Below, in pieces: positions 8,001-60,700 of a stretch of 64,000 nucleotides of DNA. The notes below the pieces were generated by a model, which ran no database searches, was not told the origin of the DNA, and saw only the letters and a program-made list of their open reading frames with translations. The position numbers were made by a program, and so were the translations under genes. Source of the stretch: Antedon mediterranea. Its lineage: Eukaryota; Echinodermata; Crinoidea; Comatulida; Antedonidae. Positions within the stretch are counted from its first letter, which is position 1. Each line of letters begins with the position of its first letter. Location: the NCBI RefSeq assembly GCF_964355755.1, contig NC_092677.1, positions 12,918,601-12,982,600 on the forward strand, read 5' to 3'.

Positions 8001-9262
8001 TATTTACTCTACTGTGTATCCAGATGACCAATCTGAAGGTAAATTTTCATAATAAAATATAATAATACCAAAATGAGCTTTTCTAATTTTGAAAATCTTC
8101 TCTTTTGAGAATTAGACCATCATCCAAGGTTTACTCCTCTTCTCCATTTTAACCTTAAGCACTGTTTAAACTATCAAACTTTATGTGACAACAAAATGTG
8201 ATGTGCCCATATATGGACATGATGAAGAAATATCACTACCATATTTGGGCATATCAATACCGTATCATATTTGGGCACACCACGCTTTTTTGTCAAACTA
8301 GACAGAGCTTAAAGCATTATTTTCTCTGCAAAACTTCGTTTGCGCGCCAATAATATCGTTCGATGCCATTGGTAATTCGCCTGTGCTAGCCGCTGTAGGC
8401 CTATTAAACGATTTATATTTATGATATGACATTTCGTAAATTTTAAAATTATTTTATTTCTTTAGATTGTTTCCCGTGCAGTGAAGGTGATATGTGCATT
8501 CATAAGGACCTGAAATGCGACGGTCTTCCTAATTGTAAAGATGGAAGTGATGAATTAAGACAGTCATGCTATCGTAAGTTACATATTAATACGTTTATTA
8601 TTACGTAAAAATAATTTTAATACGTTTATTGATTAGAATTAGAATTCTCACCTACAATATGTAACCCTACCAGTAATACTACTAAAACTATATACTGTAG
8701 GGCTACACTTTATTTATTTATAATATCATTACTACTAATGCGTGTGTGCGTTCACAACAGATTTACAACCATTCAAATATTGCAACTTGATTTCCCGTAA
8801 ACAGTTTGTCTTTTATTTTATTTATGTTTAGCCCCTACAACTAAAGAAACTACAATAATTGACAATGGTTGGAATTCGTGGATGGGCACAGCATTCGGTG
8901 TTGCAGTAGCATTCGGCATATTCTTCGTCGTCATCATCATTTTAATCGTCTGTATTTCTTGCGGCTGTAGCGAACCTGAAAATCGTGCAGAAGTTAGCGA
9001 CACACACAGCTACGAGTCTGCCATCGAACCGATGATCATATCGGCCAAACCTCGTAATTTATCTCCTGGGTGTAGGCTTAGTGCCTACAGTATGCACCAA
9101 CCATTAACTTCACAGTTGCCTACGTTAGGTCTAGCAGACAGACATGTTGAATTATCAAATGTATTATTACCACCAATTCGGCAACAAATGCTTTATTTAC
9201 CAGAAAGCACAATAGGATTACTTCATCAACATTGTGTTGCGCTTCCACCAGAACACGCATAA
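5041..9262 (+). CDS. CUB-LDLa single-pass membrane protein
   Basis: Exons 5041-5107, 7625-8038, 8466-8573 and 8832-9262 (stop TAA); all three introns are phase 1, the hallmark of shuffled extracellular modules. The predicted protein is 339 residues. Residues 1-19 form a hydrophobic signal peptide starting MEFYILFYIS. Residues about 33-150 form a CUB domain with conserved cysteines and an LLVYDGP core. Residues about 161-195 are one LDL-receptor class A module with six cysteines and a DGSDE calcium motif. Residues about 216-238 are a transmembrane helix followed by a Cys-rich edge and a cytoplasmic tail of about 100 residues. The order resembles NETO proteins (two CUBs, LDLa, helix) and LRP3/10/12, but with only one CUB. 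It is probably a cell-surface receptor or auxiliary subunit; the ligand is unknown. An AATAAA lies at 9275-9280. Confidence 0.88.
5108..7624. other. First intron of the CUB-LDLa gene
   Basis: About 2.5 kb separating the signal-peptide exon from the CUB exon. I looked for a second CUB exon and found none. It contains GAATTGAAT simple repeats near 6255 and an inverted repeat at 7393-7425. Confidence 0.6.
7393..7425. repeat. Perfect 14-bp inverted repeat
   Basis: GATAAATCTAATCA at 7393-7406 faces its exact complement at 7412-7425 across a 5-nt loop; four more pairs (AAAG/CTTT) follow after one mismatch. Intronic. Confidence 0.7.
8155..8312. mobile_element. Hairpin MITE A, copy 3
   Basis: Lies in the intron between the CUB and LDLa exons. 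The left end is diverged (TTAAGCACTGTTTAAACTAT); the right end, AACTAGACAGAGCTTA, is partly deleted. Confidence 0.65.
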
Positions 9263-10645: not shown

Positions 10646-12898
10646 TCACCGTGTTTTTAATCTAGGATGCGCCGACTGGATTCTGACTCTACGACGCATT
10701 GGTAAATTGTCGTTTGAAAATCCACTGGCCGCAGAGTGTGGCCGCCGCGCTTTTAATCTTTCTAGTTCCAATTCCTGTTTTTTCTTCAACCAATGCTGAA
10801 AAACCTCTGTTCTATTTACATCATGTGTTGTAGGCATATTTGCCTCTTGTTTTCGAATGGTTGATTTTAGTTTAGTGTTTTTTTCTTTAACCCAGTCTTC
10901 AAACGTTTTTCCCTGTCTGTTAATTTGACAATGTTTGTACTCCTTTGCTCGTTGGTTTTCTTGTTGACGTTTCATTATTTCAGCCTTTTTCTTTTTCTTC
11001 AACCAACTCTCGAACGCCTTTTCATTTACTGACAGACATGATTCTTCTTTTGGTGATTCCTTCGTTTCTTCAACTTTGACCTCGGTAACTTGATTTAACA
11101 TTTTTCTAACTTTTCTTATTAATTGTTCATCTTTCGCATCTTGTTGCTTCAGAGATAACCACTGTTGGAATGCTTGCTCATTCTCTTCGTCCGTCGCTCG
11201 TTTCTTTCCATATTTCATTTGAAATAGATCTTTTTCAGAAATAAACTTCGGTTGTACGGCTTTACGTATTCGACTTTGCTCTTTTTCTTGCTCTACCAAA
11301 CTTAGATCACCCGTAATTCGATAGGTGGTCTTTGACAATTCACTGTCACTAAGGTCCGTTGTACTAAGTTCAGTTGAAGTCTCTTTAGCACAACTCCAGG
11401 CTTGAAAAGTTACCACTCCGCAGTCAATCCTTAAACAGGAGAAAAAAAACATACATTTTTAATAATAATCATTTTGTTTGGGTTAGAAACAAGCATAAAG
11501 AGTGGATGATGACGTTGATGATACTGACATGGTGACGTCGACTATAATGACGATATTATGAAGAAAGTAATTACAGTATATATGTATTATCTACATCTTA
11601 CTATCTTACTTTTCTAAACCAGTAAGGTTTTCAGATGGTGCCTTTTCAGTCAAACTTTGTATTTCTGTGGGTGCCGATTTAGGTATGTGCTTTACTTTAG
11701 TAATTGAATTATGTCTGACAGTATCTCCATTACCGTGCTTTATAAGGTTTCTTCCGTGTAGGCCTATGCCTACGTTTACTGTAGGGCTACATCGAGGATT
11801 GAGAAGTACCTTTGGAGACGCCTTCACAAACGCCGAACGCGGCCGTTGTCCGGGCAGTGGGTACATGGAAATCTCTTCAGGGCCTGGACTAATACATAAT
11901 CTCTGAAGCTCTATCACAGGGGTAACACTCTGTGCTAGTTTAGATCTTGGAAAATTCTTAGCAAGCGGCCAAGGTAATTGTCTCGTCACCGTTTTACTGT
12001 CCCATTTATTCTTAATATGACGAAATTGGATTAGTTTGGCTTCTACCTCCGTCTGTCCAGATCTGTCGGCTAATTCTTGGGGTGTGAATCCGTATAAATC
12101 GCGGATATCGACCGAAGCATGGTGTTGTAGAAGTAGGCGGACGCAATTCATCATACCCGTGACACTGGCGATGTGCAAAGCCGTACGTCCAGTTTTAGTC
12201 TGCGTATTAGGGTTTACGCCGTCTGATAACATTCTACAACAATAGGAAAAATATACCTTACAATAAAATATAGTTTCAGTTAAAAACCAACAAATCATTG
12301 CACCAATAAAACTAGACTATAACAACAATTATTTTATAACACATCGGAGTGTATTGCCATGATTGGTATCAGGTGCCGTTCTGCATTGATTCTATTGCAC
12401 GGTTCTATTGAATGGTTATATTACACGGTAAATATTCCATAAAAAATGATACTATTGAAGAAATACAAACCTCTCAACTAAAAAGCCAAATCCTTTTTGC
12501 GAACTAATAAACAAAGCAATGAATCTTCTACGTGCGATGATCGATTTATCGAAGTGGTGGTAGATATCATTGATTACCGATTTCGTATCCCCGGACAATG
12601 ACGCTTCTATCAACTCTTCCCAGCCGTACGGATAGGCAACTGTAATATTCATACCAGGAATGATAATACACATACGTAGTGTCTCATCGTCGTTGCACAG
12701 TAGATGTTGTCTATACCATAATTTCTGCATTTCTAAAGGAACTCCGAACGTGAACTCTATCATTGACTTTAATTCGAAGATCGTCATGTCGTATCGGACA
12801 GTCACAGGGGACGTCATTCCAGTCGGTAGACGGACAAACACGTCGAATTGTTTCTGAGGACGTCCTAGCTTTTCAGTCGCCATATCAGTTGATACCAT
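10646..12898 (-). CDS. ANKUB1: ANKUB1-like protein (ubiquitin-like + ankyrin)
   Basis: Three exons in transcription order: 12898-12471, 12233-11610 and 11429-10646, all GT-AG and in phase (612 codons with stop). Residues about 18-91 form a ubiquitin-like fold (VTVRYDMTIFELKSMIE, then a WYRQHLL segment). Next comes a GWEELIEASLSGD block matching the GWKEFLMGCLLG region I recall from vertebrate ANKUB1. Residues about 144-205 carry an ankyrin repeat (TGRTALHIASVTG) and a partial second (YGFTPQELADRSG). The C-terminal third is charged and helical and holds four FxxW[LV] motifs, at residues 438-441, 490-493, 527-530 and 561-564, plus a weaker FQAW at 359-362. The family's function is poorly known. 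The ATG at 12898 is the first in frame; another ATG lies five codons downstream. Confidence 0.87.
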
Positions 12899-14581
12899 GA
12901 TGTTATAGGCTTACTTCCTCATTAATATAGCGTCATATACGTCATATAATAGCGTTATTTTGCATTAGTAACCAAGAGAAGCTTTTCAAATCCAGTCATT
13001 TGATATCACCAGTCGTCTGAAATCTATAATAAATATATAATTGAAGACGTTCTGTAAATTTACTTAGTTATCTCTGAATAAACACTCATCGATAGTTAAA
13101 CAAATATATCGTGTCGTTTGGATATAGGCCTATAAAAGAAGGTCGTAAAATTAGCAGTGAGGAGGATATACATAGACAAATTAATGTATGAATGTGATCT
13201 TTTAGGTTGATAGCAATAATACTTTTGTTGCCTTGATGCAATATGATTACAATCATAATTATTAAATCTCTGATCTAAATTCTCATGATGTCCTAATGTT
13301 ACTTTCGACAAATATTGTTTTTATCGTATGCTAAATGCTGGTTTAATTATGAAAATAAAGAAAATTGAAAGTAAGTTTCACCGTATTGAATTTAAATTAA
13401 AAAAATAAGAAAATTAGTATAGGCCTAATGCATTGTTATAGCCTATAACCATGGAGTAACTCCATGCTATAATTTATAGCTAAATTGTCATGATTAACTA
13501 GGCATGTCACTTAATTATGTAATACCAATTGTAAAAGAAACATTTAATGGTACCAATGAGTACATATACATACTTACAGTAGTGTAAGTCTGTAATGCAG
13601 TATTTTATACCAATGATATACCAATGTAAGCCACTGATATGCATACATGCACCAGGACAGGACGCTGTCTTGTCCCGTATTAAGTAAGCACATAGCCTAC
13701 ATTCGGTACTTAGTATGTGCCTAGCAGCAATGACAAAATGTGGCCTATCTACAGGACATATACAAACGTATGTAGGTAGGCCGAAAACAAAACAAACTTA
13801 CAGTGTGAGCGTCACATTGCCATGGTGATAACACGTAGTTGTTATAACGAAAACCTTCCATATTTCTACTGTATATTCAACTTAAACATGTTCGTGTCAA
13901 TTTATGGGTATACTGTAATTTGAATGGGTTCCCACGTAACGACCTTCTATTGTTCCGAGAAGCCTACTTTATCGATCTTATTGTGTCAGTATTGCATGTT
14001 CTTTCAATGATATTACACTGTAGTCCTATTATTATCATAAGAGACTACAGGTGTAGTGAATATTGAATAATAGAACTGCTGATTAAATGAAATTCGTTCT
14101 ATAAAACGATGTAGTAATGTTCTGATTGACGATGATACCGATTTGTGACGTCATAATATTAAAAGATGACGATATTAGGATGATATAGACGATGAAGATA
14201 AAAAATTAGAAAGAAATGTGATATTGATGACAATAGAGAAATTAATATCTGTATGTGATGACAGATAATGAATGACTTATTTTACATAAAGAATAACAAA
14301 TATTTTCTATAATTCAAGTTGTTTTAATTTGTGAAATTTCATCATCACATCAAAAGCAAATTGCACTTTTTCCCAAGAAAAGTAACATAAACTTCTAACT
14401 AAAATGTTGACACACGCAAATTCTAACCAGTGAACATATGAGTCGGTCTGCAGTCTCAATTTGTGAGCCGGACATATGTACTGGGAACTAACATGATGTT
14501 ATACACATTATGTGGTAAGACGAAGTCTCACAGAACTCATAGCATACGTAAACTGGTAAATGTCACATTGTTTATGCTGCA

Positions 14582-39700: not shown

Positions 39701-42700
39701 ATAGCTTTATAGTGAAATCATGAAATTGTTGACATTTTCAACAAGATTTAAACCTTGAGATTGTAGCCAGACACTTATACATAAGTTTCAACCAATCAGC
39801 AACTATCTTCCATTTTATATTGCGTTTTAATAAAAATTTGTTTTGCAATTTAAAATATTTCTAATTTAAATGAATTAAAATATAACTATGAAAACCTTGA
39901 GATGTATTAAGACTACCTTATCAGTTTCAACCAATCAGCAACAAGCAGATGATCATGGCCTTGTTCTTTTCATTAATTTATTCATGGATTATGACTATAA
40001 CATTTATATGTTCAGTTTGTATACTAGTCATAGTATAGTCACCAAGTTAATTTCAAGGTATTTGATTTAGTCAGTAACTTTCTACTTAGCGTGATATAGT
40101 CCTAATTAAAGATTCATGCGTGCCCCAATTAGTTCACACCCTACCCCTTGAACTTAAAATTGAGTCCTAAGTTTATAGCACAGGCTTATATACCAAAAGA
40201 AACCAAATTTGAGTCAGTCAGTCTGTGAGTCCATTGGCTATTACTGTTGCGTTAGTTGGATGAGTTGAACAATTTATTATTATTTTACTCCTTTACATTT
40301 GTAATTTTTCTTCTTAAGCATTGTCTACACTTCATGTGACAAAATATGTGATGTGCCCATATATGGACATGATGATGTCATATCACTACCATATTTGGAC
40401 ATACTGCTACCATATTTGGGCACATCACACATTTTTTTGTCAAACTAGTTTGATAGTGATAGAGCTTAAGCCTTGCGATTAATTTGATTCTATTCTTATC
40501 CTAAATGACTCATTTTCTGGCATAAACTAAGTTTATAAACCTATCATTAAAATGGGTCTGGTGATTATTTTTTAGTCACCAAGATTAATTTAAAACTGTT
40601 AAATCTATCAAAGATTATTAAACCATTTATCTCTCTTGTGTTCACATTCCTTGGTATTTTTGTAGACTTAACAACTGTACAATAAACAGTAAGGAAGTCT
40701 ATACCATGTAAAAGAAGGACTATCTATATCAACAAGGCATACTCCTCCCACGCAACTAGTGCATGATGTAGTTACAACCGCATGCTTTTGGAAGGAAGCG
40801 GGTTATGCGTGTTGAGGTTATGTATGTGTGTGAGACACTCGTTCTTATGATGTATTCTGAATCATACCTAGAGGTGATAAGAATAGAACGTTTAATGGTA
40901 CTTGCTTAATTTTTATTTCAACTTGCATTTAAACATCGCCTAAATGCTAAAGAAATATTAAGGCACAAAATGTGCAAACTTCAGGCAAGTGTCCATCCAT
41001 CAAGTCCATCTGCAGCCACAAAGTCAACTCATTTTAAAAATATATATTCAGATAAATATCAACCTATTATCATACATCTGTTTTTATTTAATTATTTCTT
41101 ATTTCATACACCGTAAACTAACTTTGCCAATTACAGGAGGGATAAACTAGTTTATATTAAATCAAGTCTCATTTGAAACTTATGAAGTGTGTATCAAAGT
41201 ATTAGATACTCTAGTGCACAACTTTGGAATGTTTTGCCTCTTTCTTCCAAAACATACAAAATGTAAATAGTTTCAAAAAGATTGAAAAATATTATTTATT
41301 ATCAAACAATACTTAGCGGCCATGTTTATGTTAATATATTTACAAACCTCTAACAATTCAAAATGTATTAATATGTTTTGTACTGAAATTGAAATGTACC
41401 GCTTTACGTCTTATTGTTATTTTCATTTCTTTGTCTTGTATATGTTTTGTTTGCTTTTGAATGTTTTGTTTTGGCGTCCCTGACACAAGCTTTTTTTTTT
41501 TTGTGACGCCACCATTTTGGAAATAAATGTTGATTTTGATTGATTTGAAGATTAGTATATAAAAACTTTTTAAATTTTCTGAGAATATTTGTCACGAATA
41601 TATTTAGAAAACAACAATACCCATAAGCTGCATTTAATTAAAACTGGATTTCACCTTGACATTATGGATACTAAAGTATTAATCATAGAATTTATGATAG
41701 ATGAAATATAGAATCATTTTTCAACTTCCCGTTTTGTAGAGGCCCGGTTATAGTAGTGTAGTTTTGTTATTATTATGGCCTATTTGATTTTGATGTTGCA
41801 TTTATCATGTCATTCCTGTCAGGCATGTCATTGTCTTTTAATAATTTACTGACAAAACAAATTATAGACTTTTTTTCTGAATAATGAATGGTCCCACTGT
41901 ATGGTAGAATATTAACCTACTAGGATTTAACTTTAGTGCACAATATTTTGAAAATTGTGCATTCAGGTACAATATCTATATTATATTCTTTGTAAGCACA
42001 ACTGTAAAGTCTGGTGTTAAACGAAAGAAATGAGACAGAGAGACAACCATGTAAGTTACGATAAGTACAAGTGTTTAATGGCAAAACAACACGTCCTTTA
42101 TATACAGTAATACCTAGCACGCCACCACTCAGGTGTGTATGCAAATTGGGGTCTAGCGCCACCATATTACATCCCCCTTATCGACAAAAATAGAAAGTTT
42201 TTTTTTAGATTTTTTAGAATATAAACATTTAGAATATATAACAACATCCCCTTCACAGCAAACTTGAAACAACATACTAGCAAAATATCATACAGTCAAA
42301 AAAAAAAAAAAATTAAGTTATAAATGTTCGCAATATCGTTACAATTTTGAGGTATTCGTAGTTCGTATCATGGTTTATATCGATCAGGGATTTTCACTTC
42401 CCGTCCGGACCTTGTACGAATTATAGGTTGTTCTGGTTCGATCTCAGTTCTGCTCACATCTGGTTTATCCTGTGGGTCTGGGTTGAGAGGTTTGTTAGGT
42501 ACGGTTGTTTCTTGTAGTACAGGCGTACTGACTGGTATTTCTCGGATGTGTTGTCGATTTCGTCTGGTGATTTTACCATTCGTTATTACGGATCATAAGC
42601 CATTGATAATGATAACAAATAAACCACTAACATCTGCACCTCCTAGATTACAACGGATGCTGATCAAATTACAAGGATAATGGCCATTGGGCTAAGTTTT

Positions 42701-45700
42701 GTCTAACCAGTAAATTTAAAGATCATCGTAGTCGACCAAAATATAGAACTAATTATGCTCAAAACCACCAACGTTACCGACGGGGTCAATCCCCAAGACA
42801 ACGGGGTAGATACCAACGCAACCGCCCTTATGGATATGATAGAAATGTACATTATTTGGAACAGTCTGAACAGACGCATACTGATGATAACGATACTGAT
42901 TGCATGAATACGCAATTTGAATCATTTTCTTTCTCCTCTATACAAGTATCCAGTTTCTGTTTCCAAGACGGACCGAAACCCCGAGACGAAGCTTTCGCAA
43001 ATCTCAAAGTAAAACTTGACGGCAGACCAGGCACGCATAACTTACAATTAAAAGTTGATACTGGCGCACAAGCAAACACGCTCCCACTTAGAACATACCG
43101 TCACATGTTCCCGTACAATTTGAATACAAAAGGCTACCCACAACCAAATGCATTGGAAGCCACGCAGAACGTTTTGACGGCTTACAACGATACAAAAATA
43201 AAATGTTTTGGTACAACAAGAATACATTGCTGTTACGAGAACTCTACATGGTTGAGTACCACATTTTTTGTTGTTGATGTTCCAGGCCCAGCTGTAATCG
43301 GTCTTCCAACATGCGAACAACTCCGCATTGTAACACTGCACTGTAATATCAACAACACACCAACCAAATACAATCCCGTAGTTAATAACATCGAAGAACT
43401 TATTAAACTTTACCCTGACCAGTTTGATCGTATTGGTGAATTCAAAACGATACACAAGCTTGTTGTTGATCCTAACGTTCCCAGTCGAATGAATGCACCG
43501 AGACGTACACCTATTGCTTTAAAGGAAATGATAAAGGCTGAACTTTCAAAGATGGAGCAGTTAAATATCATAAAGCCAATTGAAGAGCCAACAGAGTGGG
43601 TAAGCTCACTAACGTATGTGACAAAAACAGATGGTAGCATTCGTGTTTGTTTGGACCCTAAATATTTAAACATGGCACTTGTCCGTCCGCAACACAGAAT
43701 TCCGACACTTGAAGAAATAAATCATAGATTCGCCAACGCAAAGTTTTTTTCCAAACTCGATGCCAAAGCTGGTTATTGGTCAGTAAAGTTAGATCACGAC
43801 AGCCAGAAACTTACCACTTTCCAAACACCCTTTGGACGCTATTGCTTCCAGCGTTTGCCTTTCGGATTGTCTGTGAGCCAGGATATATTTCAGCTTGAGA
43901 TGGATCGAATCATCACCATATTGCATTCAGGTACAATATCTATATTATATTCTTTGTAAGCACAACAATGTAAAATTGGTTTCATTTCGTTTATTTATAG
44001 TAAGTTTTCTTTTCAAAGATGATAGCTGCTTAGTATCTGACATTTATGATATCAAGGTTATTAATTTACATCGGAGAACTAGCTTTCTCAGAAGATAAGA
44101 CACATTTGTAATGTAATTAATGCATTTGGGAATTAGCAATAAATGTTTTAATAGTCTTGGCAAAAAGTTCATTAAACGTATTCAATATTCTAGGAAGGAG
44201 GATAGGTAAATGGGAATGTCTACATGAAGATTTTAAAATGTTTAGTCTTTTCGTGCCTATAGCTTACCTAGATAAACTGAAAACAGCCATTATCCTCAAA
44301 AAGCGAGGTACTGTATAACTCGAAAAGTAGAGATTTAAAATGTTAATATTATCATGTAATTGGTTACCTTGCTGTTGGATGTTTATCTTAGAATAAAATC
44401 AAAACAATTTGTTGACATAGATTATCATTTGGCAATGAAATAATTATGGAATTTCAGGATATAGGTATTAAAATGTTATTCCTCTGCATCTATCCTATCA
44501 AATGGTACATATTTAATTCTTCAAGTTTGTTTTAAATAGCTTAGTTTGGTTTTGGTTTTGAATTGCATGGACTTCTTCGTGTTCCAATGGTTTTTTATTA
44601 AGGATATAATAAGTCATGGATAAAATATGGAAGTAAGTACAGTATGTTGTATTGTTTTACTAGTTATCAGCTATAGCAGCTATTGCCTAAAAAAACCAAA
44701 TTGTTTCATTGATTAATTCATGTTTGATGTTTAACTACATTTGATGTTGTAATCATTTGAGCAAACTTCCTTAATTTTGTAAAATAATTTGCCATATGTT
44801 TTAACCAAACCAATAATCTGATTAAAGTACATTACATTTTGCATTAGCAGTAAAATGTATTTTTATGTAATTGCTATAAACAGCTGAAATGCTATAATAA
44901 TTATGCATGCTAATTCTTTCAACATTATTTAATGTAAATCTTAAAACAGTTGGCTTTTTAATTTATTGTATATCATAGTTATGTTCAATTTTACATAGCA
45001 GACTTTAGATTCCAGTTCTTGTTAGAAGCCTACAGTAATTATCAAAGTTAAAGTAGTTTTTAAAATTATACCTCCCATTGAACACCACAACCCTACTCCC
45101 TAACGTGTACCCCTCCCCAACCTGTACCTCCTATAGCCTACGTCTAGCATGGTATGTCAATGAGGACAGGGTGATACCGCCTAATCCATTATTCGGATAG
45201 AGGTTTTTATTTTATAAACTACCAATATATTGGTTGATTTGGGTCTTTTCAATACTGGAAATTATTTAATTAATAAGATCTTTTTAATCTAGATATAAGT
45301 AGTAATCAGAAATAATAATAAAACATAGTGACAGATAGTGATAGTGACCTAACATTTGAGGTCAACCCTGAGGCAAATGTGAAGCTAGATTTGATGACGT
45401 TTGATGACTGGAACAAACCAAGTAGAATAATTTATAATATAATTGCTTTTGTAAATGGGTCATATTTAAATATTAGCATACTTTGTTAATTGTTAAATAA
45501 AACAGTTACAGTACCAAGGTTCCTTAAGCTTTTGCTTTTAAATTGATATTTAATACAGTTTGACATACTTTAGTATAGAATAATTAATTAAATTTAGACA
45601 GCTTAATTATTGTTAATAACCAGTTTTAAAAAAGGGGGTTCATGTGCCCCTTATGGTTGCCTCCTTTTTTCACTGCCCTGGATAAAAACAAGACGAGTAA

Positions 45701-48700: not shown

Positions 48701-51700
48701 ATTATTTTTTTATTATAGTTAGGCACTTAGGAACTTTAACCTTATTGAATATTGAATTTAATGTCCAAAATAGTTCTACAGAATTAGCAGCTTAAAAGGA
48801 GACATAGAGTGAGAGTGAAGTTTTATCTGAGGATAAATAAGTAAACATCTAACCCACGAAGATACAAGTCTACTCCAATCTTCCTACCCAGTATTAATAG
48901 TTGTTATCACATGGGCAATGCCGGGCCCCATCTTTAAAGAGAAGATGCAAAAACAAGTGTAAATCTGTAGTACATTGTCCTAAAACAAAGTGGAAACTTT
49001 CTGGAAACCAACACATCCAGAACTGACAAACTTCCTATTGTTTTGAAATACTATAACTTAATGTCATTTTAATTAACCAATCAAATTGGTATAAAGTTCC
49101 TTTTCTACATTTTTTTATTTCATCTTAATTCTCAAATATTCAATAAGGATGTTTGCCAAATGTAATACAGTGTGTGATACTTTAAAAACAACCTTGATTA
49201 ATTGGTTCATCCATTGATGAGTGGGTTGATTGCATTCCTAGATGTAGAAAGGGTTGCTAATCTAAACTTTAGTCATTCTGCCTGTCTGTCTGTCCGTCCT
49301 TTATTTGTGTCAGTTGGATATTTAAAAAAGGGAGCCTTACTTACAGCATATAGGAAAAGTTTGTTCAAACCTGATTTCATGCTCATTTAAAAAAGAACTG
49401 ACTTAAATTATCACTTTGTATCTCAGGGTGGGATTATACTTCAGTCAATATACAGTATTCATTATAGAATATAAATTCGTATTCATGAAAATGTGGATTA
49501 TTTGCATTCTTTTGTATTTATTTTATGAAATTTTGAACAACCATATCAGGAAACTTAGTGATTCATGCAACGATCACAGGAAATATGAAAGCAAAGATAA
49601 AAAAAAGAATAGAGGAAGGCTTTATTAACTTTACTGAAACCTTAAGTTTGGACATTCTTCATTTAATATGCTAATTAGTATGCTAATTATGTATTGTGTT
49701 TTTTTTAGCTGACAAAAAAATCAGGAATAATTAATATTGAAAAGCTTACATAAAACGATATTAATCAATTAAAAAGGCTTCACACATTTTGTTAGTACTT
49801 TTACATACATTTCACAGTATCATAGACAAACGCATAATACAGTTCTCACATACATCATATGCCTATTTTGGCCTATGAAACAGTGAATGACATGTTATTC
49901 CGTATCACAGAATTTGCCTATGATTCTCTACAAATTATAGATAGGTCCGAAAATTGACTACTGTTTTCTAACAATTCATTCGGGAAATTCCAATTTCGTC
50001 ATATTCCAAATTTAAAACTATAATCTCAATCTTTCGTCGGACAGGGCACAAATTGTTAAAACTGTGCATTATAGTGATGTTTGGACATGTCCATCTACAT
50101 TTTAGGTATAAGTGATAATGATAATATGCAAAACTTGTTTTTACTTGTAAAAAAGCACTTCCTTGATATGTGGAGTGAAAAGAGGGACGTAGCTATATCA
50201 GCTAGGTTTCAAAGGGTGCAAGAATCTGGTTAGGGTGTTTCTTGTGGAAATGACTCATGACTAATATTTCCGCATCTTCAAGCGTATGTAGGTACATCAC
50301 GTGTTAGACACAATTGATAAAACTGAAGAAGACTGCTTCAATATATACATATTTGCATGGCATCACTTTATCTCACAATGTAACACAGATTTTGCATTAT
50401 TACAATGTTTGCTGTAAACAAAATTAATTTTCATTTACATAAGTTAAATTTGTATCAATCATGTGTCTAGACACTTGATATTTTAGTATTAAATATCCAA
50501 ACAAAATTTCGAAAGCTTTCGTTCTTGTTAATTGAGTATGCTTTACCTTGTCAAGTTAATCAATATATTCCAACTTTTCTTCATCATCATGATATTGCGT
50601 TGCCTCAGCGATTCCCAACAGAAACAATGTGGTTATGAGAAATACATTCCCTGATATATGAACAATTAAAATTACATTAAAATGTGTCTTAATTATCAAT
50701 ATTGTATACAACTGAATAAAAATAAATCCTTTAAAGCACTACAAGAAAAGGAAATGATTTCACTTTTTCAACCCATAGGGAGAATTTTATTTCTTGAAAA
50801 AATTGCCTTCACATTAGTTTCATGGGAACACTTTCCTTTTGTCCTCAATCTAACCCTTTGTCTATGATTCTCTCTGTTAAAAGGAGAAATGTGTTATTAA
50901 TAATGGACCTTATGCAATATGAGGCTCCACCTTCTAAATGTGAATATTATTTTTATATATTATATCTTGGAGATAGTATACTTTAGAGAGAATATACTTC
51001 CAATGAGATTAGAGAGAGCATGCCTTCTTGAGGGCATACCTTAGAGAGAGTATACAGTACCTTCGAAAGAGCATACCTCAATAAGAGCATACCTTAGAGA
51101 GAGTATACCTTTGACAGAGCATACTTCCAAGAGGGCATACCTTAGGGGGAGTATACCTTTGAAAAAGCATACCTCCATGAGGACATGCTTTCACAACAAG
51201 AGCATACTTTAGAGAGAGCATACCTCCACAAGATTATACCTCCACCTTCCTGCCTTTAGCTGAGACCCATTGGAAGGAAATGAACTTGAATGAACCCACG
51301 CACAGGACAACGAAAAGTGCCATCAAAACAACAATACCAACAACCCTAGCTATCAGTCCGCTTTTTCATTCATTATTTAAATCATCACTCTGGATTCAAA
51401 CAACTGTTGGTTGTCATACGTTGGACACCCCTACTTCCCTTCCTACTGTGGGATGCCATATTCATGTGTATACTTTCACCTGTTAAAACAAGTTAAAATG
51501 ACGTTTAAAAACAGGTTTCTATGATGTAAGCACATGACCTTTCCTGTTTTATAACATTGCAAGCTACTTTCAATTCGCTTGTTTTTCATGGCACGATGGT
51601 ATTGTCCAGTACCATACTGACTCAGAAGTCTATACCTTGTGTAGAAGTTCATACTTTTAATTGGTATAAGTTTTGTGCAAATTGATGATACTAACTATTA

Positions 51701-54700
51701 GTGTGTATTATTTGAGCTTAATTTTGTTTAAAGTAAAAGCACCAATTTTCCTTTTGTTTGTAAGTGTAGCACCGTCATTTGTCAAAATTATCGTGGAATT
51801 ATTTGCAAAAGAAACTGTAAAATGCGAAATTATACTAATAAATAAAAAGAAATAAAGTCAAGTATTAAGTTATAAATAAAATAAATTAGTTGATTCTAAC
51901 TTGTAATTAATATTGCGCTGCTCAAATAAACACTGACAACATAATTATTTAAGACACTTTTATTTCTAGCTTCAGGTATAAAAACTAAAAAAAAGTTAAT
52001 TGTTGTACATTAAAGATCAACTCCCATTCAAACTGAACTATATATATTAAACAATTAATTAAATAATATTAATAATCAATAAAATAATTAAATAAGGATC
52101 TGTATTGATGTAATTGTTTTTTTAATTAGTTATTGTTATTAATATTAATACAAATTTTTAAAGACAAATAGTCTTCTTACTTTTCCGTAGCTTATTATTG
52201 TAGTTAGAAATATAATTATATTCAAGGAAATGATTCAGATTGAAATTGGCCAATAACTACAGGCTAGCTTGTCTGATTTTAAAGTCACAAATTGAATACA
52301 AGTTTATATTTTCCACAAACAGTTACCAGTATTTTGTAAATCAATCAGGTTTTCCCTCAACTAAATTTGATAAAATCTGTCAATTTCTGTGTACTCCATA
52401 TAATATATTGTGAGACAGAGTTGAAAGATTTTGGTAAAGCTATCATTTCTATTACATTTATATTAATATTGAATAATATCTTTATTGGAAAAACGGATAC
52501 ACTTAATATAGTGTTTTTAACAAGGCCATTACAAAACTATTTACAAAAATCAACAAACAATTAAAAGTAAAAGAAGTAAAAAGACTGTAATAAAAACAAT
52601 ACAAAAGTATTGGAAATATCCACAACATTATTTATTGTGCTTGGCAGAATTATTTAGATCTGTATAGCAACTTAAGTGTACACCTTTGGGACCCAACAAA
52701 GTTCCCCCTGTAAAGCAACTTACATTAGAGCCCCTTAAGTGTACACCTTTGGGATCCAACAAAGTTCCCCTGTAAAGCAACTTACATTAGAGCCCCTTAA
52801 GTGTACACATTTGGAACCCAACAAAGTTCCCCCTGTAAAGCAACTTACATTAGAGCCCCTTAAGTGTACACCTTTGGAACCCAACAAAGTTCCCCTGTAA
52901 AGCAACTTACATTAGAGCCCCTTAAGTGTACACCTTTGGAACCCAACAAAGTTCCCCCTGTAAAGCAACTTACATTAGAGCCCCTTAAGTGTACACCTTT
53001 GGAACCCAACAAAGTTCCCCCTGTAAAGCAACTTACATTAGAGCCCCTTAAGTGTACACCTTTGGGACCCAACAAAGTTCCCCCTGTAAAGCAACTTACA
53101 TTAGAGCCCCTTAAGTGTACACCTTTGGAACCCAACAAAGTTCCCCCTGTAAAGCAACTTACATTAGAGCCCCTTAAGTGTACACCTTTGGAACCCAAAA
53201 AAGTTCCCCCTGTAAAGCAACTTACATTAGAGCCCCTTAAGTGTACACATTTGGAACCCAACAAAGTTCCCCCTGTAAAGCAACTTACATTAGAGCCCCT
53301 TAAGTGGACACCTTTGGAACCCAACAAAGTTCCCCCTGTAAAGCAACTTACATTAGAGCCCCTTAAGTGTACACCTTTGGGACCCAACAAAGTTCCCCCT
53401 GTAAAGCAACTTACATTAGAGCCCCTTAAGTGTACACCTTTGGAACCCAACAAAGTTCCCCCTGTAAAGCAACTTACATTAGAGCCCCTTAAGTGTACAC
53501 CTTTGGAACCCAACAAAGTTCCCCCTGTAAAGCAACTTACATTAGAGCCCCTTAAGTGTACACCTTTGGAACCCAACAAAGTTCCCCCTGTAAAGCAACT
53601 TACATTAGAGCCCCTTAAGTGTACACCTTTGGAACCCAACAAAGTTCCCCCTGTAAAGCAACTTACATTAGAGCCCCTTAAGTGTACACCTTTGGAACCC
53701 AACAAAGTTCCCCCTGTAAAGCAACTTACATTAGAGCCCCTTAAGTGTACACATTTGGAACCCAACAAAGTTCCCCCTGTAAAGCAACTTACATTAGAGC
53801 CCCTTAAGTGGACACCTTTGGAACCCAACAAAGTTCCCCCTGTAAAGCAACTTACATTAGAGCCCCTTAAGTGTACACCTTTGGGACCCAACAAAGTTCC
53901 CCCTGTAAAGCAACTTACATTAGAGCCCCTTAAGTGTACACCTTTGGAACCCAACAAAGTTCCCCCTGTAAAGCAACTTACATTAGAGCCCCTTAAGTGT
54001 ACACCTTTGGGACCCAACAAAGTTCCCCCTGTAAAGCAACTTACATTAGAGCCCCTTAAGTGTACACCTTTGGAACCCAACAAAGTTCCCCCTGTAAAGC
54101 AACTTACATTAGAGCCCCTTAAGTGTACACCTTTGGAACCCAAAAAAGTTCCCCCTGTAAAGCAACTTACATTAGAGCCCCTTAAGTGTACACATTTGGA
54201 ACCCAACAAAGTTCCCCCTGTAAAGCAACTTACATTAGAGCCCCTTAAGTGTACACCTTTGGGACCCAACAAAGTTCCCCCTGTAAAGCAACTTACATTA
54301 GAGCCCCTTAAGTGTACACCTTTGGAACCCAACAAAGTTCCCCCTGTAAAGCAACTTACATTAGAGCCCCTTAAGTGTACACCTTTGGAACCCAACAAAG
54401 TTCCCCCTGTAAAGCAACTTACATTAGAGCCCCTTAAGTGTACACATTTGGAACCCAACAAAGTTCCCCCTGTAAAGCAACTTACATTAGAGCCCCTTAA
54501 GTGTACACCTTTGGAACCCAACAAAGTTCCCCCTGTAAAGCAACTTACATTAGAGCCCCTTAAGTGTACACATTTGGAACCCAACAAAGTTCCCCCTGTA
54601 AAGCAACTTACATTAGAGCCCCTTAAGTGTACACCTTTGGGACCCAACAAAGTTCCCCCTGTAAAGCAACTTACATTAGAGCCCCTTAAGTGTACACCTT

Positions 54701-57700
54701 TGGAACCCAACAAAGTTCCCCCTGTAAAGCAACTTACATTAGAGCCCCTTAAGTGTACACATTTGGAACCCAACAAAGTTCCCCCTGTAAAGCAACTTAC
54801 ATTAGAGCCCCTTAAGTGTACACCTTTGGAACCCAACAAAGTTCCCCCTGTAAAGCAACTTACATTAGAGCCCCTTAAGTGTACACATTTGGAACCCAAC
54901 AAAGTTCCCCTGTAAAGCAACTTACATTAGAGCCCCTTAAGTGTACACCTTTGGGACCCAACAAAGTTCCCCTGTAAAGCAACTTACATTAGAGCCCCTT
55001 AAGTGTACACCTTTGGAACCCAACAAAGTTCCCCCTGTAAAGCAACTTACATTAGAGCCCCTTAAGTGTACACCTTTGGAACCCAACAAAGTTCCCCCTG
55101 TAAAGCAACTTACATTAGAGCCCCTTAAGTGTACACCTTTGGAACCCAACAAAGTTCCCCTGTAAAGCAACTTACATTAGAGCCCCTTAAGTGTACACCT
55201 TTGGAACCCAACAAAGTTCCCCCTGTAAAGCAACTTACATTAGAGCCCCTTAAGTGTACACCTTTGGAACCCAACAAAGTTCCCCCTGTAAAGCAACTTA
55301 CATTAGAGCCCCTTAAGTGTACACCTTTGGAACCCAACAAAGTTCCCCCTGTAAAGCAACTTACATTAGAGCCCCTTAAGTGTACACCTTTGGAACCCAA
55401 CAAAGTTCCCCCTGTAAAGCAACTTACATTAGAGCCCCTTAAGTGTACACCTTTGGAACCCAACAAAGTTCCCCCTGTAAAGCAACTTACATTAGAGCCC
55501 CTTAAGTGTACACCTTTGGAACCCAACAAAGTTCCCCCTGTAAAGCAACTTACATTAGAGCCCCTTAAGTGTACACCTTTGGAACCCAACAAAGTTCCCC
55601 CTGTAAAGCAACTTACATTAGAGCCCCTTAAGTGTACACCTTTGGGACCCAACAAAGTTCCCCCTGTAAAGCAACTTACATTAGAGCCCCTTAAGTGTAC
55701 ACCTTTGGAACCCAACAAAGTTCCCCCTGTAAAGCAACTTACATTAGAGCCCCTTAAGTGTACACCTTTGGAACCCAACAAAGTTCCCCCTGTAAAGCAA
55801 CTTACATTAGAGCCCCTTAAGTGTACACCTTTGGAACCCAACAAAGTTCCCCCTGTAAAGCAACTTACATTAGAGCCCCTTAAGTGTACACCTTTGGAAC
55901 CCAACAAAGTTCCCCCTGTAAAGCAACTTACATTAGAGCCCCTTAAGTGTACACCTTTGGAACCCAACAAAGTTCCCCCTGTAAAGCAACTTACATTAGA
56001 GCCCCTTAAGTGTACACCTTTGGGACCCAACAAAGTTCCCCCTGTAAAGCAACTTACATTAGAGCCCCTTAAGTGTACACCTTTGGAACCCAACAAAGTT
56101 CCCCCTGTAAAGCAACTTACATTAGAGCCCCTTAAGTGTACACCTTTGGAACCCAACAAAGTTCCCCCTGTAAAGCAACTTACATTAGAGCCCCTTAAGT
56201 GTACACCTTTGGAACCCAACAAAGTTCCCCCTGTAAAGCAACTTACATTAGAGCCCCTTAAGTGTACACCTTTGGAACCCAACAAAGTTCCCCCTGTAAA
56301 GCAACTTACATTAGAGCCCCTTAAGTGTACACCTTTGGAACCCAAAAAAGTTCCCCCTGTAAAGCAACTTACATTAGAGCCCCTTAAGTGTACACATTTG
56401 GAACCCAACAAAGTTCCCCCTGTAAAGCAACTTACATTAGAGCCCCTTAAGTGTACACCTTTGGGATCCAACAAAGTTCCCCTGTAAAGCAACTTACATT
56501 AGAGCCCCTTAAGTGTACACCTTTGGAACCCAACAAAGTTCCCCCTGTAAAGCAACTTACATTAGAGCCCCTTAAGTGTACACCTTTGGAACCCAACAAA
56601 GTTCCCCCTGTAAAGCAACTTACATTAGAGCCCCTTAAGTGTACACCTTTGGAACCCAACAAAGTTCCCCCTGTAAAGCAACTTACATTAGAGCCCCTTA
56701 AGTGTACACCTTTGGAACCCAAAAAAGTTCCCCCTGTAAAGCAACTTACATTAGAGCCCCTTAAGTGTACACATTTGGAACCCAACAAAGTTCCCCCTGT
56801 AAAGCAACTTACATTAGAGCCCCTTAAGTGTACACCTTTGGGACCCAACAAAGTTCCCCTGTAAAGCAACTTACATTAGAGCCCCTTAAGTGTACACCTT
56901 TGGAACCCAACAAAGTTCCCCCTGTAAAGCAACTTACATTAGAGCCCCTTAAGTGGACACATTTGGAACCCAACAAAGTTCCCCCTGTAAAGCAACTTAC
57001 ATTAGAGCCCCTTAAGTGTACACCTTTGGGACCCAACAAAGTTCCCCCTGTAAAGCAACTTACATTAGAGCCCCTTAAGTGTACACATTTGGAACCCAAC
57101 AAAGTTCCCCCTGTAAAGCAACTTACATTAGAGCCCCTTAAGTGTACACCTTTGGAACCCAACAAAGTTCCCCCTGTAAAGCAACTTACATTAGAGCCCC
57201 TTAAGTGTACACCTTTGGGACCCAACAAAGTTCCCCCTGTAAAGCAACTTACATTAGAGCCCCTTAAGTGTACACCTTTGGAACCCAACAAAGTTGTCGC
57301 ATAAATAGGGGTTGGCCGTAGTGTTAAAAACATATTGCCTAAGTGCATTGATATCTACAGATTATTTTATTGTCTAAAGAATGTATTGCTATTTAATGAA
57401 TAAGAATGTGTGCATCACAAGACCTTTAAAAAGTATGGAGGTGATATATGTAACTGTATGCATCAATCCATTGTGAATAAGAATGTTTAAAAACCATAAA
57501 TCTCAATGGATCACATAACATTAAATTTTATCACGATGGTAGTATATATCACTAACTGGAGTATAATATACTTTCATAGCGCCATCTATGATGTTATACT
57601 TTCGTTAATAGATGTACAAAACCAAGTGACTTTATCAACATAAAAATAAAAGTTTCTTGACAAAGTATACCCACTTCAAGTGAAGGTCAAAGTGAGCTTC

Positions 57701-60700
57701 CTTTAGCGTCAGCTAGATAATTAAATTCCATTTTAATTGCTATTGCTATAGTAAGCTAGACATTGGTTACGTGTGTACAAAGGCTTATTTTGAAGGGGTC
57801 AGTACTAATCTGCATGAGAAGTCAGGAAGAAACCCAATCAAAGTATTTTCCTTTAACTAGTCACTCATTTCTAACCCTTTCTATTTGTTAACGCTTTAAC
57901 TAGCACCATATCAGATTCTGGCGGTTGATTATGTTCGTTAAGCCAACGTTTTTATTTTAATGATCCTCTTGCGTGTGATTTTATTTGTTTTTGTCCAAAA
58001 AAAATATGCGATTGCATTAAAATTACCCTGTTATCGCTTTAAAAGTTTATCCGCAAGTTTCAGTAATATTGTTTGATAAGTACTTTGATGATGGTACATC
58101 TAATTCCTCTACGTGAATCGTTGCCTTATTTGTTGACACCGTGGCACCCGTCCACTCGGATGTCGCCATGCCCAGCGCTTTGTCACATGTTTTCGATTGC
58201 TTCATAATTTGAAGTTGTTCACCATTTTTGTTCCGTCTCAGTTCCTGCCAACTCGTTGAGTGCTAAGTGACGTCATAGTGTTTGACTCATATTCCAAAAC
58301 CAAAGCGTGAATGGAGGATTGGATTCACTTAGCCCTGTTGTAAATACTCTGAAGTTTTCTGCATACCGCTTTTCCTACTGAACTTAACTGGTGCTGGAAG
58401 CTACTGGAAAATAGCCTCGGAGAATGTTTAGTTGCGTAATGATCACCATCTAAGGACGAGTATATGAGAGAGCGTTACCGAAGGAGAGAATCTGAAGGCC
58501 GGTAGAAAGTTTAGAATGCCCGGAAGCTGGCCTAGTGCATCACCATGATTTAGGATGTTTTAATCTATTTTGTCTAACGACCATACAAAATGTTTGTAAG
58601 TTCAGCCACATCCTTCCTTGTTTTGACAGGGTCTTTCTTGTGTTTGTCTAAGTGTATTAATTAGTCTAAAAATAAGTTGAGTTGCCAACTTGAAAATGTA
58701 AATTCAATGTATTTATTTACTAATTTATGGTAAATATCACCATGAAATGTTTCAGCATATGTATTTTGTTATTTGTCTTACTTGGCAACATATACTAAGT
58801 GAATTATTTTGAGAATTTTAATCAAATTGTTATTAATTCAAGTTATTGTCCTTGTTGTAAATTATCTTTGAGTCCAATGTTGCTTTTTTCATATTTCAGT
58901 TTTAGCAATGTATTATTATTATTATTACTAATAGTGTTATAAATAATTCTCATACTTTGTAGTCAATAATTGTTTTAATTGTATTGTTCTATTTATGAAA
59001 TTAATAAATTAATAAATTCAGCAGTTTGAAATGCTGTTATAAATGTATTTTAATCAAAATGATTTAAAATCCAATAATCCATTCAGGCAATTTCAATATA
59101 TTAAATATAGCATTTAGCAATGAATTTACAAGAACATTTTATGTAATTTTGAAATTGTAATGATCTATAAATAGATGCATGGAGGTTGAAACAGGGAAAA
59201 TGTTTGATAACATGCGGTTATTATTTGTCTATCTGACTCATATGTTAAGCACATTGCTCTAATTTTAAAATTAAAGACCCCTTCCCTGCAATTTTGGACG
59301 TTTTTTGGAAAATAATACATATATATCACTTTAAAAACATTAAACCATGTCATTCCTTGTCTTAAATGTACGTTTTATGGTAAATTATGATAAAAAGTGA
59401 GAAACAATGCACTACCTAAGTAGCTCACGGCGATCGACCTCTCGTGGACGGTCTTAGGCCTAGCCTAGCTAGGCTTAGTTTTGTAGGCCTAGCTGGTAAA
59501 CATTGGTAACGTACGAACATCGTAAGCGAGCTATATACCTAGCCTGACGTTGTATAGTTGCTGCATTAATTGTCTTTCTATTTTTGCCAGACTCCGTTGA
59601 TACAAATTGGGGAAAACCCGGTATTTTCGCTGAAAAGTTAGGAGTCTTCCATTTGTTTTGGCCTCACGATCGATCGAAAAGTGGGCGAATTACAGGTGAA
59701 AAACAAAAATATCAATCCGCGCGCAATGCATTTTGGGATTTATAGCGGGCCGCTATAATGATTAGAATCGACTTATTTTTCACATTTTTAACCGTTTAAA
59801 GACGAAAAAAGTTATCGCAATAGGACCATATAGTATTATTTTTACATTAAATATAGTTTTTGATCTTAAATTAGATCTAAAAAATGTAGGGAATGGGGCT
59901 TTAATGAATCCTCATTAATAATTTCTGAAGATAAAGAACACAGATATAGAATGTAGTAGTCCTAAGGTCTTTCCACACTATCAAACTAGTTTGACAAAAA
60001 ATGTGTGATGTGCCTAAATATGGTAGTGATATGATGTCATTGGGCACATCACAAAGAATTTGGCATTGTATAATCATTACCCTCCGCCAAGGAGGTATAT
60101 GTAATCGATCGCATGTGTTTGTTTGTTAGCAGGATTACGTAAAAAGTAATTACAAGATCTTTACCAAAATGAATACAGATATATATATATTCCATTAAAT
60201 TTTGGGACCACGGTTCCAATTCTGGACCACTTTTTTGTATACTTTTGAGACCTAATAGTGTTTTAAAGATAGGACAGATTTTTTCAAAAGCCGGCGAGCA
60301 GTCTTAAAGTAACAAGTAAACTGAAATTTTCTCTAGAACTACTTGTCCGAAAAACTTCATTTTCTAGTTCTAGTTGTAATGATTTGTAAAATGAAGGAGA
60401 TGGAAGGATCTACTTTTTCCCTTCATGTCCATGCACAGTAACTAACATTTCTAATATCAATATTGATCAAATTTTCATACTGTATCTGTTGGACATTTGC
60501 TGTTTCCACAAAACGACAAAAGGAATAATCCATTTGACAGCAAAGTTTCAAGGGATTTTACCAACTGGGCGCAGTTTCAGCTGAACACTATTACTGAGAG
60601 ATTGGGTTCAAATCACTAAGGGGTTATACTTATAAAATTTGTTTATAAATAATGATTGTAATTTAATTGTTTTAAAATGTTACAAGAAAACTATGTTGCA

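Follow-up and report, generated by a model that had tools for sequence, protein, structure and literature searches.

Why should a minisatellite of the crinoid Antedon mediterranea be readable on both strands as long open frames, and where did such a repeat come from? The array lies in the 64,000-nucleotide stretch analysed here (the window, whose positions serve as coordinates; Table 1). Tandem Repeats Finder (TRF) gives it a period of 63, 73.5 copies and 98% matches, and cutting at CTTAAGTG yields 73 full units and a 33-base stub. Sixty-six of the full units are 63 bp long and seven (nos. 2, 4, 36, 37, 40, 61 and 67) are 62 bp long, in each case by loss of one base from a run of five C's. The full units fall into ten types, 38 of them are identical, and strings of variants recur in the order of unit types along the array. 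This is a tandem array far beyond chance, and in its head-to-tail order, unit length (about 10–100 bp), tens of copies and homogeneity it is a minisatellite. An initial annotation had placed it at 52660 to 57295; the right limit stands, while 52660 is the start of a flanking remnant, CTGTATAGCAACTT, just outside the array found by TRF. No Rfam match at gathering scores and no tRNA (ARAGORN, bacterial code) was found in the window. A nearby 48-bp array (51009–51228) shows, by eye, a likeness of 16–17 bases to the 63-mer, for which we claim no kinship.

Table 1. Features at and around the minisatellite, in window coordinates
Feature	Position	Strand	Basis
Left flank remnant CTGTATAGCAACTT	52660..52673	+	13/14 bases equal unit positions 38-51 (CTGTAAAGCAACTT)
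Minisatellite, 4.6 kb	52671..57295	+	TRF and unit cutting at CTTAAGTG
First 62-bp (frame-breaking) unit	52734..52795	+	Unit cutting
Remaining 62-bp units	starts 52859, 54874, 54936, 55124, 56446, 56823	+	Unit cutting
Element-derived stretch across the junction of units 7 and 8 (example)	53097..53142	+	Alignment to L043
Only ATG-started frame of at least 30 codons touching the array (174 codons), judged to be chance	56824..57348	-	
Final 33-base stub, running continuously into element interior	57263..57295	+	Unit cutting and alignment to family copies
Element interior GTCGCATAAATAGGGGTTGGCCGTAGTGTTAAAAACATAT...	57296..57340	+	Genome matches; colinear with L012, L043
Family core GGCCGTAGTGTTAAAA	57314..57329	+	Exact genome matches

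The stop-free unit translations are LKCTPLEPNKVPPVKQLTLEP on the plus strand and GSNVSCFTGGTLLGSKGVHLR on the minus strand, and the remaining two frames of each strand contain stops. One frame per strand is uninterrupted between 62-bp units, the longest having 683 codons (plus) and 686 codons (minus); these start with GTG and TTG, respectively, which are bacterial start codons, and neither open frame of the array contains an ATG. The initial annotation had described a 21-codon unit lacking stops in one frame of each strand, frames of these two lengths, and seven 62-bp units that break the frame, all of which unit translations, unit cutting and frame ends confirm. It had also argued that openness follows of itself once a single unit has no stop, and this is so because the period is divisible by three; it is mainly for this reason that the unit looks readable on both strands. 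Repeats of random 63-mers at 33% GC are open in both directions in 27% of cases, those of dinucleotide shuffles of the 63-mer in 43% and those of its plain shuffles in 47% (20,000 sequences of each type). Among 72 real arrays in 168,054 bases (the window and 31 loci, a non-random sample mostly picked for matches to the family described below; best of overlapping TRF rows, consensus of at least 15 bases), 34 have a period divisible by three; of those 34, both strands are open in 28 (in 5 of 10 where the period is at least 30). The double openness is not beyond chance, and open frames in arrays with such periods should not be scored as evidence of coding.

The origin of the unit could not be seen in a reading of the stretch by itself: a terminal piece of a transposon-like family, dispersed in the genome, is combined in it with flanking DNA. 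In alignment, unit positions 51–63 and 1–33 correspond to the 5' end of a family with terminal inverted repeats (TIRs), and positions 38–50 are flanking DNA that recurs just left of the array. In the example in Table 1, TA plus CATTAGAGCCC makes up positions 51–63, the outer end of the element, and CTTAAGTG...CAAAGTT makes up positions 1–33, its subterminal part. The type B unit shares 42 of 49 columns with family copy L043, and its score of 63 compares with at most 27 in 1000 shuffles; the unit scores 43 with copy L012 (maximum of 300 shuffles 25) and just 25 with copy L010 (maximum of 300 shuffles 23), and the right edge of the array scores 94 with L043 and 66 with L010. Unit and right edge are colinear with L012 and L043, also in an alignment of 11 rows, and the likeness continues from the last unit into 40–45 flanking bases; the unit is homologous to a dispersed element and the array edge is continuous with that element. 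This right flank recurs at three places in two loci (C7:7421415, C7:7421499 and C4:27493744). On the left, CTGTATAGCAACTT alone among the window sequences beyond the array comes within one mismatch of the corresponding part of the unit; its 13/14 match has a fixed-register chance of about 7e-7 at 0.28 per base, and 15 bases have been lost between two CTT where it joins AAGTG. At 13 bases the flank sequence is short. A single-unit form would consist of the flank CTGTATAGCAACTTA and the element end. With 3 mismatches allowed, no GGTTCTACTGTA, the element's 3' end, was found over about 380 bases downstream of the core, and with that end missing this locus shows no complete insertion or target-site pair. 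Taken together, the alignments make it very probable that the array is a minisatellite seeded by a dispersed, MITE-like TIR element. It belongs to a known kind, the transposon-born minisatellite, in which the present case has a unit that spans the insertion joint.

The seed family is dispersed through the genome. Its 16-base core, GGCYGTAGTGTTAAAA, has 139 + 96 = 235 exact matches, and the reversed pattern has 0 + 0; a broader search gave 1457 first-look candidates, 40 of which were scored and yielded 45 matches. The end motif TACAGTAGAACC is in range of the core in 11 of 23 copies (0.15 expected) and GGTTCTACTGTA in 7 of 23 (0.1 expected), counted with at most two mismatches after 8 of the 31 examined loci had been dropped as having no core; two of the 23 carry both motifs, with spans of 151 and 171 bases. 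The end motifs include TA, which is present at both ends of copy L034. In being short, numerous and furnished with TIRs, these copies are MITE-like. In the search of the same genome that the initial annotation had called for, all 74 reported matches of the array 63-mer itself are at the window locus. None of the papers listed in literature searches names the family in its title or the opening lines of its abstract, and the listed matches to its end motif as text look unrelated by title.

The seed transposon is probably of the pogo/Tigger-like type, judging from a sequence likeness at its very end. Locus L045, which we take to be pogo/Tigger-like from its DDE_1 domain, carries a 539-amino-acid frame with PF03184 and PF03221 and perfect 29-base inverted repeats that include TACAGTAGAACC. 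The outermost bases of the family, TACAGTAGAACC, are those of L045 (the first 12 bases, TA included, are common to both), but the family copies with both end motifs are too short for a transposase. In unrestricted local alignments of the L045 end with six family copies, one exceeded and one equalled the maximum of 500 shuffles; the kinship of family and transposase therefore rests on the anchored outer bases, since the unrestricted alignments are mostly within the shuffle range. Such ends are present in the fetched flanks of one of six DDE_1 loci (taken from 47 matches), and for L045 the unfilled relative at window positions 59271–59500 shows TA.

The structure of the array suggests the following history. 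A family copy would have inserted at a TA beside CTGTATAGCAACT, and the flank, through the TA into about the first 45 bases of the element, would have been tandemly duplicated, which joined the C-run of the element to CTGTA of the flank. Family copies read CCCCTGAATAG at this point, so a CTG may have been common to both sides of the joint (a microhomology). Unequal exchange or replication slippage could account for the expansion to 73 units and for their homogeneity, the repeated variant strings suggest that local blocks were copied within the array, and the C5 run presumably slipped to C4 in seven units. The openness of both strands would be a by-product, the 21 codons per unit happening to be stop-free in one frame of each. 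We infer this order of events, the mechanism of expansion and the absence of function. With little doubt, then, the array is a non-coding minisatellite that grew out of a single end of a short DNA transposon, non-autonomous and probably pogo/Tigger-like. A curious "two-strand gene" thereby acquires a plain history, in which the end of a small transposon and 13 neighbouring bases were copied 73 times, and it is a clean case in that the sequence still shows where the first duplication was joined.

Four other explanations were weighed. That the array is functional, with putative binding sites for a transposase or host factor or minus-strand splice-site decoys, is improbable. Tandem repeats inside a TIR may provide extra transposase-binding sites; in excerpts of PMC4079207 this is discussed for Galileo and suggested for the TIR-220 of Tetris. 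Each unit contains GTAAGT and CTTTACAG on the minus strand, a pair that was chosen after seeing it and lies on one strand in 0.4% of shuffles; however, the element is not expected to move, because its other end was not found. Less probable again is a plus-strand coding repeat, in which (LKCTPLEPNKVPPVKQLTLEP)n would be an exon of a repetitive protein ending in NKVVA and a stop at 57302–57304, with a candidate splice between ...TATAG and CAACTT, and the 62-bp units would be assembly errors. A single frame is open over the 73 units save for the seven deletions, and the TAG before the array is a candidate acceptor. The deletions are all of the C5 to C4 type and are spaced somewhat closer than random (p 0.045); this type of loss is a common long-read consensus error. 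The rare T at site 22, however, occurs in two units that both have the deletion as well (Fisher p 0.008), which gives that deletion, at least, the look of a copy rather than of a random error. Moreover, the unit is built from a non-coding transposon end and its flank, there is no in-frame ATG and no Pfam match at E 0.1, and all five distinct substitutions among units are missense on this strand (too few for a test). An ordinary single-locus minisatellite with a chance likeness to the family, which would fit the confinement of the 63-mer to one locus, is very improbable, and is already contradicted by the alignments, both by the unit score (63, where shuffles reach at most 27) and by the colinear likeness beyond the last unit. 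Coding on the antisense strand, or genes that overlap with one on each strand, can scarcely be credited: the minus frame is likewise open, but chance gives this in 27–47% of such units, and the 174-codon frame that enters the array from the right, with three Pfam matches each below its curated cut-off (the best a weak one to DUF5944, E 0.00066), ends inside the 62-bp unit that starts at 56823, while 4 of the 5 substitutions are missense on the minus strand.

Coding on either strand was rejected, since 7 of the 73 units shift the frame, there is no ATG, no Pfam family exceeds its cut-off and the openness is that of chance. The emphasis that the initial annotation had placed on sense and antisense coding thus finds no support; the frames are predictions, and nothing seen here indicates that the array is translated.

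Several described systems resemble this locus in part. In Drosophila virilis, excerpts of PMC4079207 describe TIR-220 arrays of up to 66 copies, for which unequal crossing-over was proposed, that come from the TIR region of the DNA transposon Tetris, as the present array comes from a TIR region; but Tetris is a foldback element with 220-bp units and many arrays, whereas here there is a 63-bp unit, one array, and flanking DNA in the unit. The Xenopus Tc1/mariner MITE miDNA4 with its satellite, for which microhomology was proposed, and Xstir (Scalvenzi and Pollet; Hikosaka and Kawahara, as summarised in PMC12628747 and PMC9659126) are likewise short non-autonomous elements that contain or yield tandem repeats; in those summaries the repeat is inside the element, whereas here the joint of the insertion lies within the repeated segment. 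Alu, B1 and LTR sequences have also given rise to minisatellites, for which short direct repeats were put forward as the initial step (PMC6947457, in excerpt); there too the seed is a dispersed element, but here that seed is a DNA-transposon end.

With this family and several further arrays in one genome, the question of why some transposons seed minisatellites could be studied by counting. It is possible, if rather doubtful, that the family acts as a nursery of minisatellites throughout the genome, its copies being unusually prone to tandem duplication via internally repeated, inverted motifs of about 17 bases (TTAAGGGGACACC...), and some arrays, like the present one, capturing flank. Stop-free units might then keep arising on one or both strands, and repetitive proteins would be possible in principle. 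Ten copies taken in coordinate order (L035–L044) contain no core array; among the 72 loci listed, 8 (about one in nine) have the core in tandem, and TRF finds arrays of family-like sequence in L013, L019, L020, L022 and L033 among 22 loci examined.

The tandem array of the initial annotation is real: Tandem Repeats Finder reports a period of 63, 73.5 copies and 98% matches at window positions 52671–57295, and cutting at CTTAAGTG divides it into 73 complete units followed by a 33-base stub. Units are 63 bp long in 66 of the 73 cases and 62 bp in seven, all seven short ones having C4 in place of C5. The ten full-unit types differ in this C-run and by substitutions at five unit positions (9, 14, 20, 22 and 27), and 38 of the 73 units are identical. 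The C5-to-C4 deletion is found on several unit backgrounds and is present in each of the two units that have the rare T at site 22 (Fisher p 0.008), and the seven 62-bp units are somewhat clustered along the array (p 0.045). Possible causes, which may have acted together, are slippage, unit-to-unit copying and local consensus errors.

The array is very probably a minisatellite built from a transposon end. All 74 matches reported by a genome search with the 63-mer lie inside it, and the bases just to its right recur at three other places (two on contig C7, 84 bases apart, and one on contig C4); these recurrences (loci L010 and L012) are members of a dispersed family of short, MITE-like elements with terminal inverted repeats (TIRs). 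The stub and right flank align with L012 and another locus, L043, in a single colinear match that starts at the TA and the outer end, crosses the subterminal part and continues into the interior. The right edge of the array scores 94 against L043, and one unit variant (type B) is identical to it at 42 of the 49 aligned columns (score 63, with 27 the highest among 1000 shuffles). The unit scores 43 against L012 (maximum of 300 shuffles, 25) and only 25 against L010, whose copy is altered in this part (shuffle maximum 23). Given these colinear alignments, we read unit positions 51–63 and 1–33 as the 5' end of a family element, including its TA; about 16 bases of other family copies are missing from the aligned window copy, as from L043. 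Positions 38–50 (CTGTAAAGCAACT) are read as DNA that formerly lay beside the insertion, because CTGTATAGCAACTT adjoins the array's left edge (at 52660) and occurs at no other window site outside the array at one mismatch or fewer. The four C's at positions 34–37, outside the alignment's assignment, are probably element-derived, and the first unit has lost 15 bases between two CTTs. Where the element C-run meets the flank CTGTA, the CTG may be common with the family's CCCCTGAATAG, which would point to slippage or microhomology-mediated joining as the origin of the joint.

Minisatellites and satellites derived from transposon ends and MITEs have been described (PMC9659126, PMC6947457, PMC12628747; Tetris, PMC4079207), and passages of these papers propose microhomology-led duplication and expansion through unequal exchange. 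The present array is a new example of these known transposon-born minisatellites; the flanking DNA within its unit is a feature not met in those passages. A literature search found no published description of this TIR family.

The family's 16-base core word GGCYGTAGTGTTAAAA has 139 + 96 exact genome occurrences (reversed control, 0 + 0). Searching with a 326-base family query brought up 1457 first-look candidates, of which 40 were scored and yielded 45 matches. Eight of 31 loci match part of this query without the core and were excluded from the end-motif counts (L011 and L013–L015 overlap other loci and stand outside the 31). Among the 23 copies with the core the 5' end motif is present in 11, the 3' motif in 7 and both in 2, with 0.15 (5') and 0.1 (3') expected by chance. 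Of the 235 core places, the 100 that were listed fall into 72 loci, at eight of which the core recurs within 500 bases, with spacings of 68, 75, 80–82, 85, 168 and a few larger. We read these eight as tandem arrays from the spacing alone, except L019, the one whose sequence was inspected; two of them have just two cores. Among 22 loci checked with Tandem Repeats Finder, which are the best matches and a non-random sample, family-like arrays are present in L013, L019, L020, L022 and L033 (see table), and the 63-bp array of L013 is on a contig other than the window's. No array of the core was seen in ten loci taken in coordinate order (L035–L044), where the repeats are a 17-mer present 2.4 times within L042 and some further arrays.

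DDE_1 has 47 matches in the genome. The best of these, L045, has an unbroken 539-amino-acid frame from an ATG (1045–2664, minus strand), with PF03184 (DDE_1) and PF03221 (HTH_Tnp_Tc5) above cut-off, between perfect inverted repeats of 29 bases containing TACAGTAGAACC; it is possibly a recent Tigger-like element. Window positions 59271–59500 hold a copy of a different repeat that is almost the same as the DNA flanking L045 on either side (contig C3); this copy is an unfilled relative of that site, with the TA duplication visible. The family is likely, but not proven, to be pogo/Tigger-like, because its end motif is identical to L045 over the outer bases TACAGTAGAACC, yet unrestricted alignment of the L045 end with family copies exceeds the 500-shuffle maximum in one of six cases and equals it in one of six, and such ends were not found in the fetched flanks of five of six fetched DDE_1 loci.

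Coding by both strands of the array is not supported. The sense and antisense frames of 683 and 686 codons in the initial annotation have the lengths claimed when ORF calling permits GTG and TTG starts; with ATG starts only, one frame of at least 30 codons touches the array (56824–57348, minus strand, 174 codons). The consensus unit has one stop-free frame per strand, and its only ATG (minus strand) is directly followed by TAA and lies outside the open frame. The double openness is unsurprising, because head-to-tail 63-mers are open on both strands in 27% of random sequences at 33% GC and in 43% of dinucleotide and 47% of plain shuffles (n=20,000 each). In a non-random sample of 168,054 bases, the period is a multiple of three in 34 of 72 arrays, and both strands are open in 28 of these 34 (in 5 of 10 with periods of at least 30); the 63-bp array of L013 is open on one strand only. 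As had been noted, the 62-bp units break the frame, 7 of the 73 units shifting it. Of the five distinct substitutions, all are missense when read in the plus frame and four in the minus frame, with 45/189 and 47/189 possible changes silent, respectively; these five events, too few for a test, show no sign of purifying selection. Every 63-bp unit also has, on the minus strand of its flank-derived part, a donor- and acceptor-like pair (GTAAGT...CTTTACAG) covering 16 bases in all, both sites included; 0.4% of shuffles carry such a pair, picked after the fact, on one strand.

Other features of the window, and family-like arrays elsewhere in the genome
Feature	Location	Coordinates	Description
Second array	window	51009–51228	48 bp x 4.3, 16-bp subrepeats (AGAGCATACC...); 1.4 kb left of main array; Tandem Repeats Finder
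Retroelement fragment	window	42664–43959	431-codon open frame, reverse transcriptase domain PF00078
Exon-like frame	window	7603–8052	CUB domain (+)
Exon-like frame	window	11606–12910	ankyrin and ubiquitin domains (-)
Family-like array	L013, contig C7	5269–6038	63 bp x 12.2
Family-like array	L013, contig C7	4398–4588	84 bp x 2.3; within 2 kb of the preceding
Family-like array	L019		85 bp x 5.3
Family-like array	L020		104 bp
Family-like array	L022		34 bp
Family-like array	L033	2688–2961	17/34 bp; 17-base word GACACCTATATTAAGGC resembles family subterminal motif; 1.1 kb from L033 family copy

The second array of the window has a weak likeness, by eye, to the 63-mer. A dispersed word of about 21 bases, CATATCACTACCATATTTGGG, is present at window positions 2372, 10518, 37685 and 40379 in about two tandem copies each, and similar words are found in loci L027, L036 and L041.
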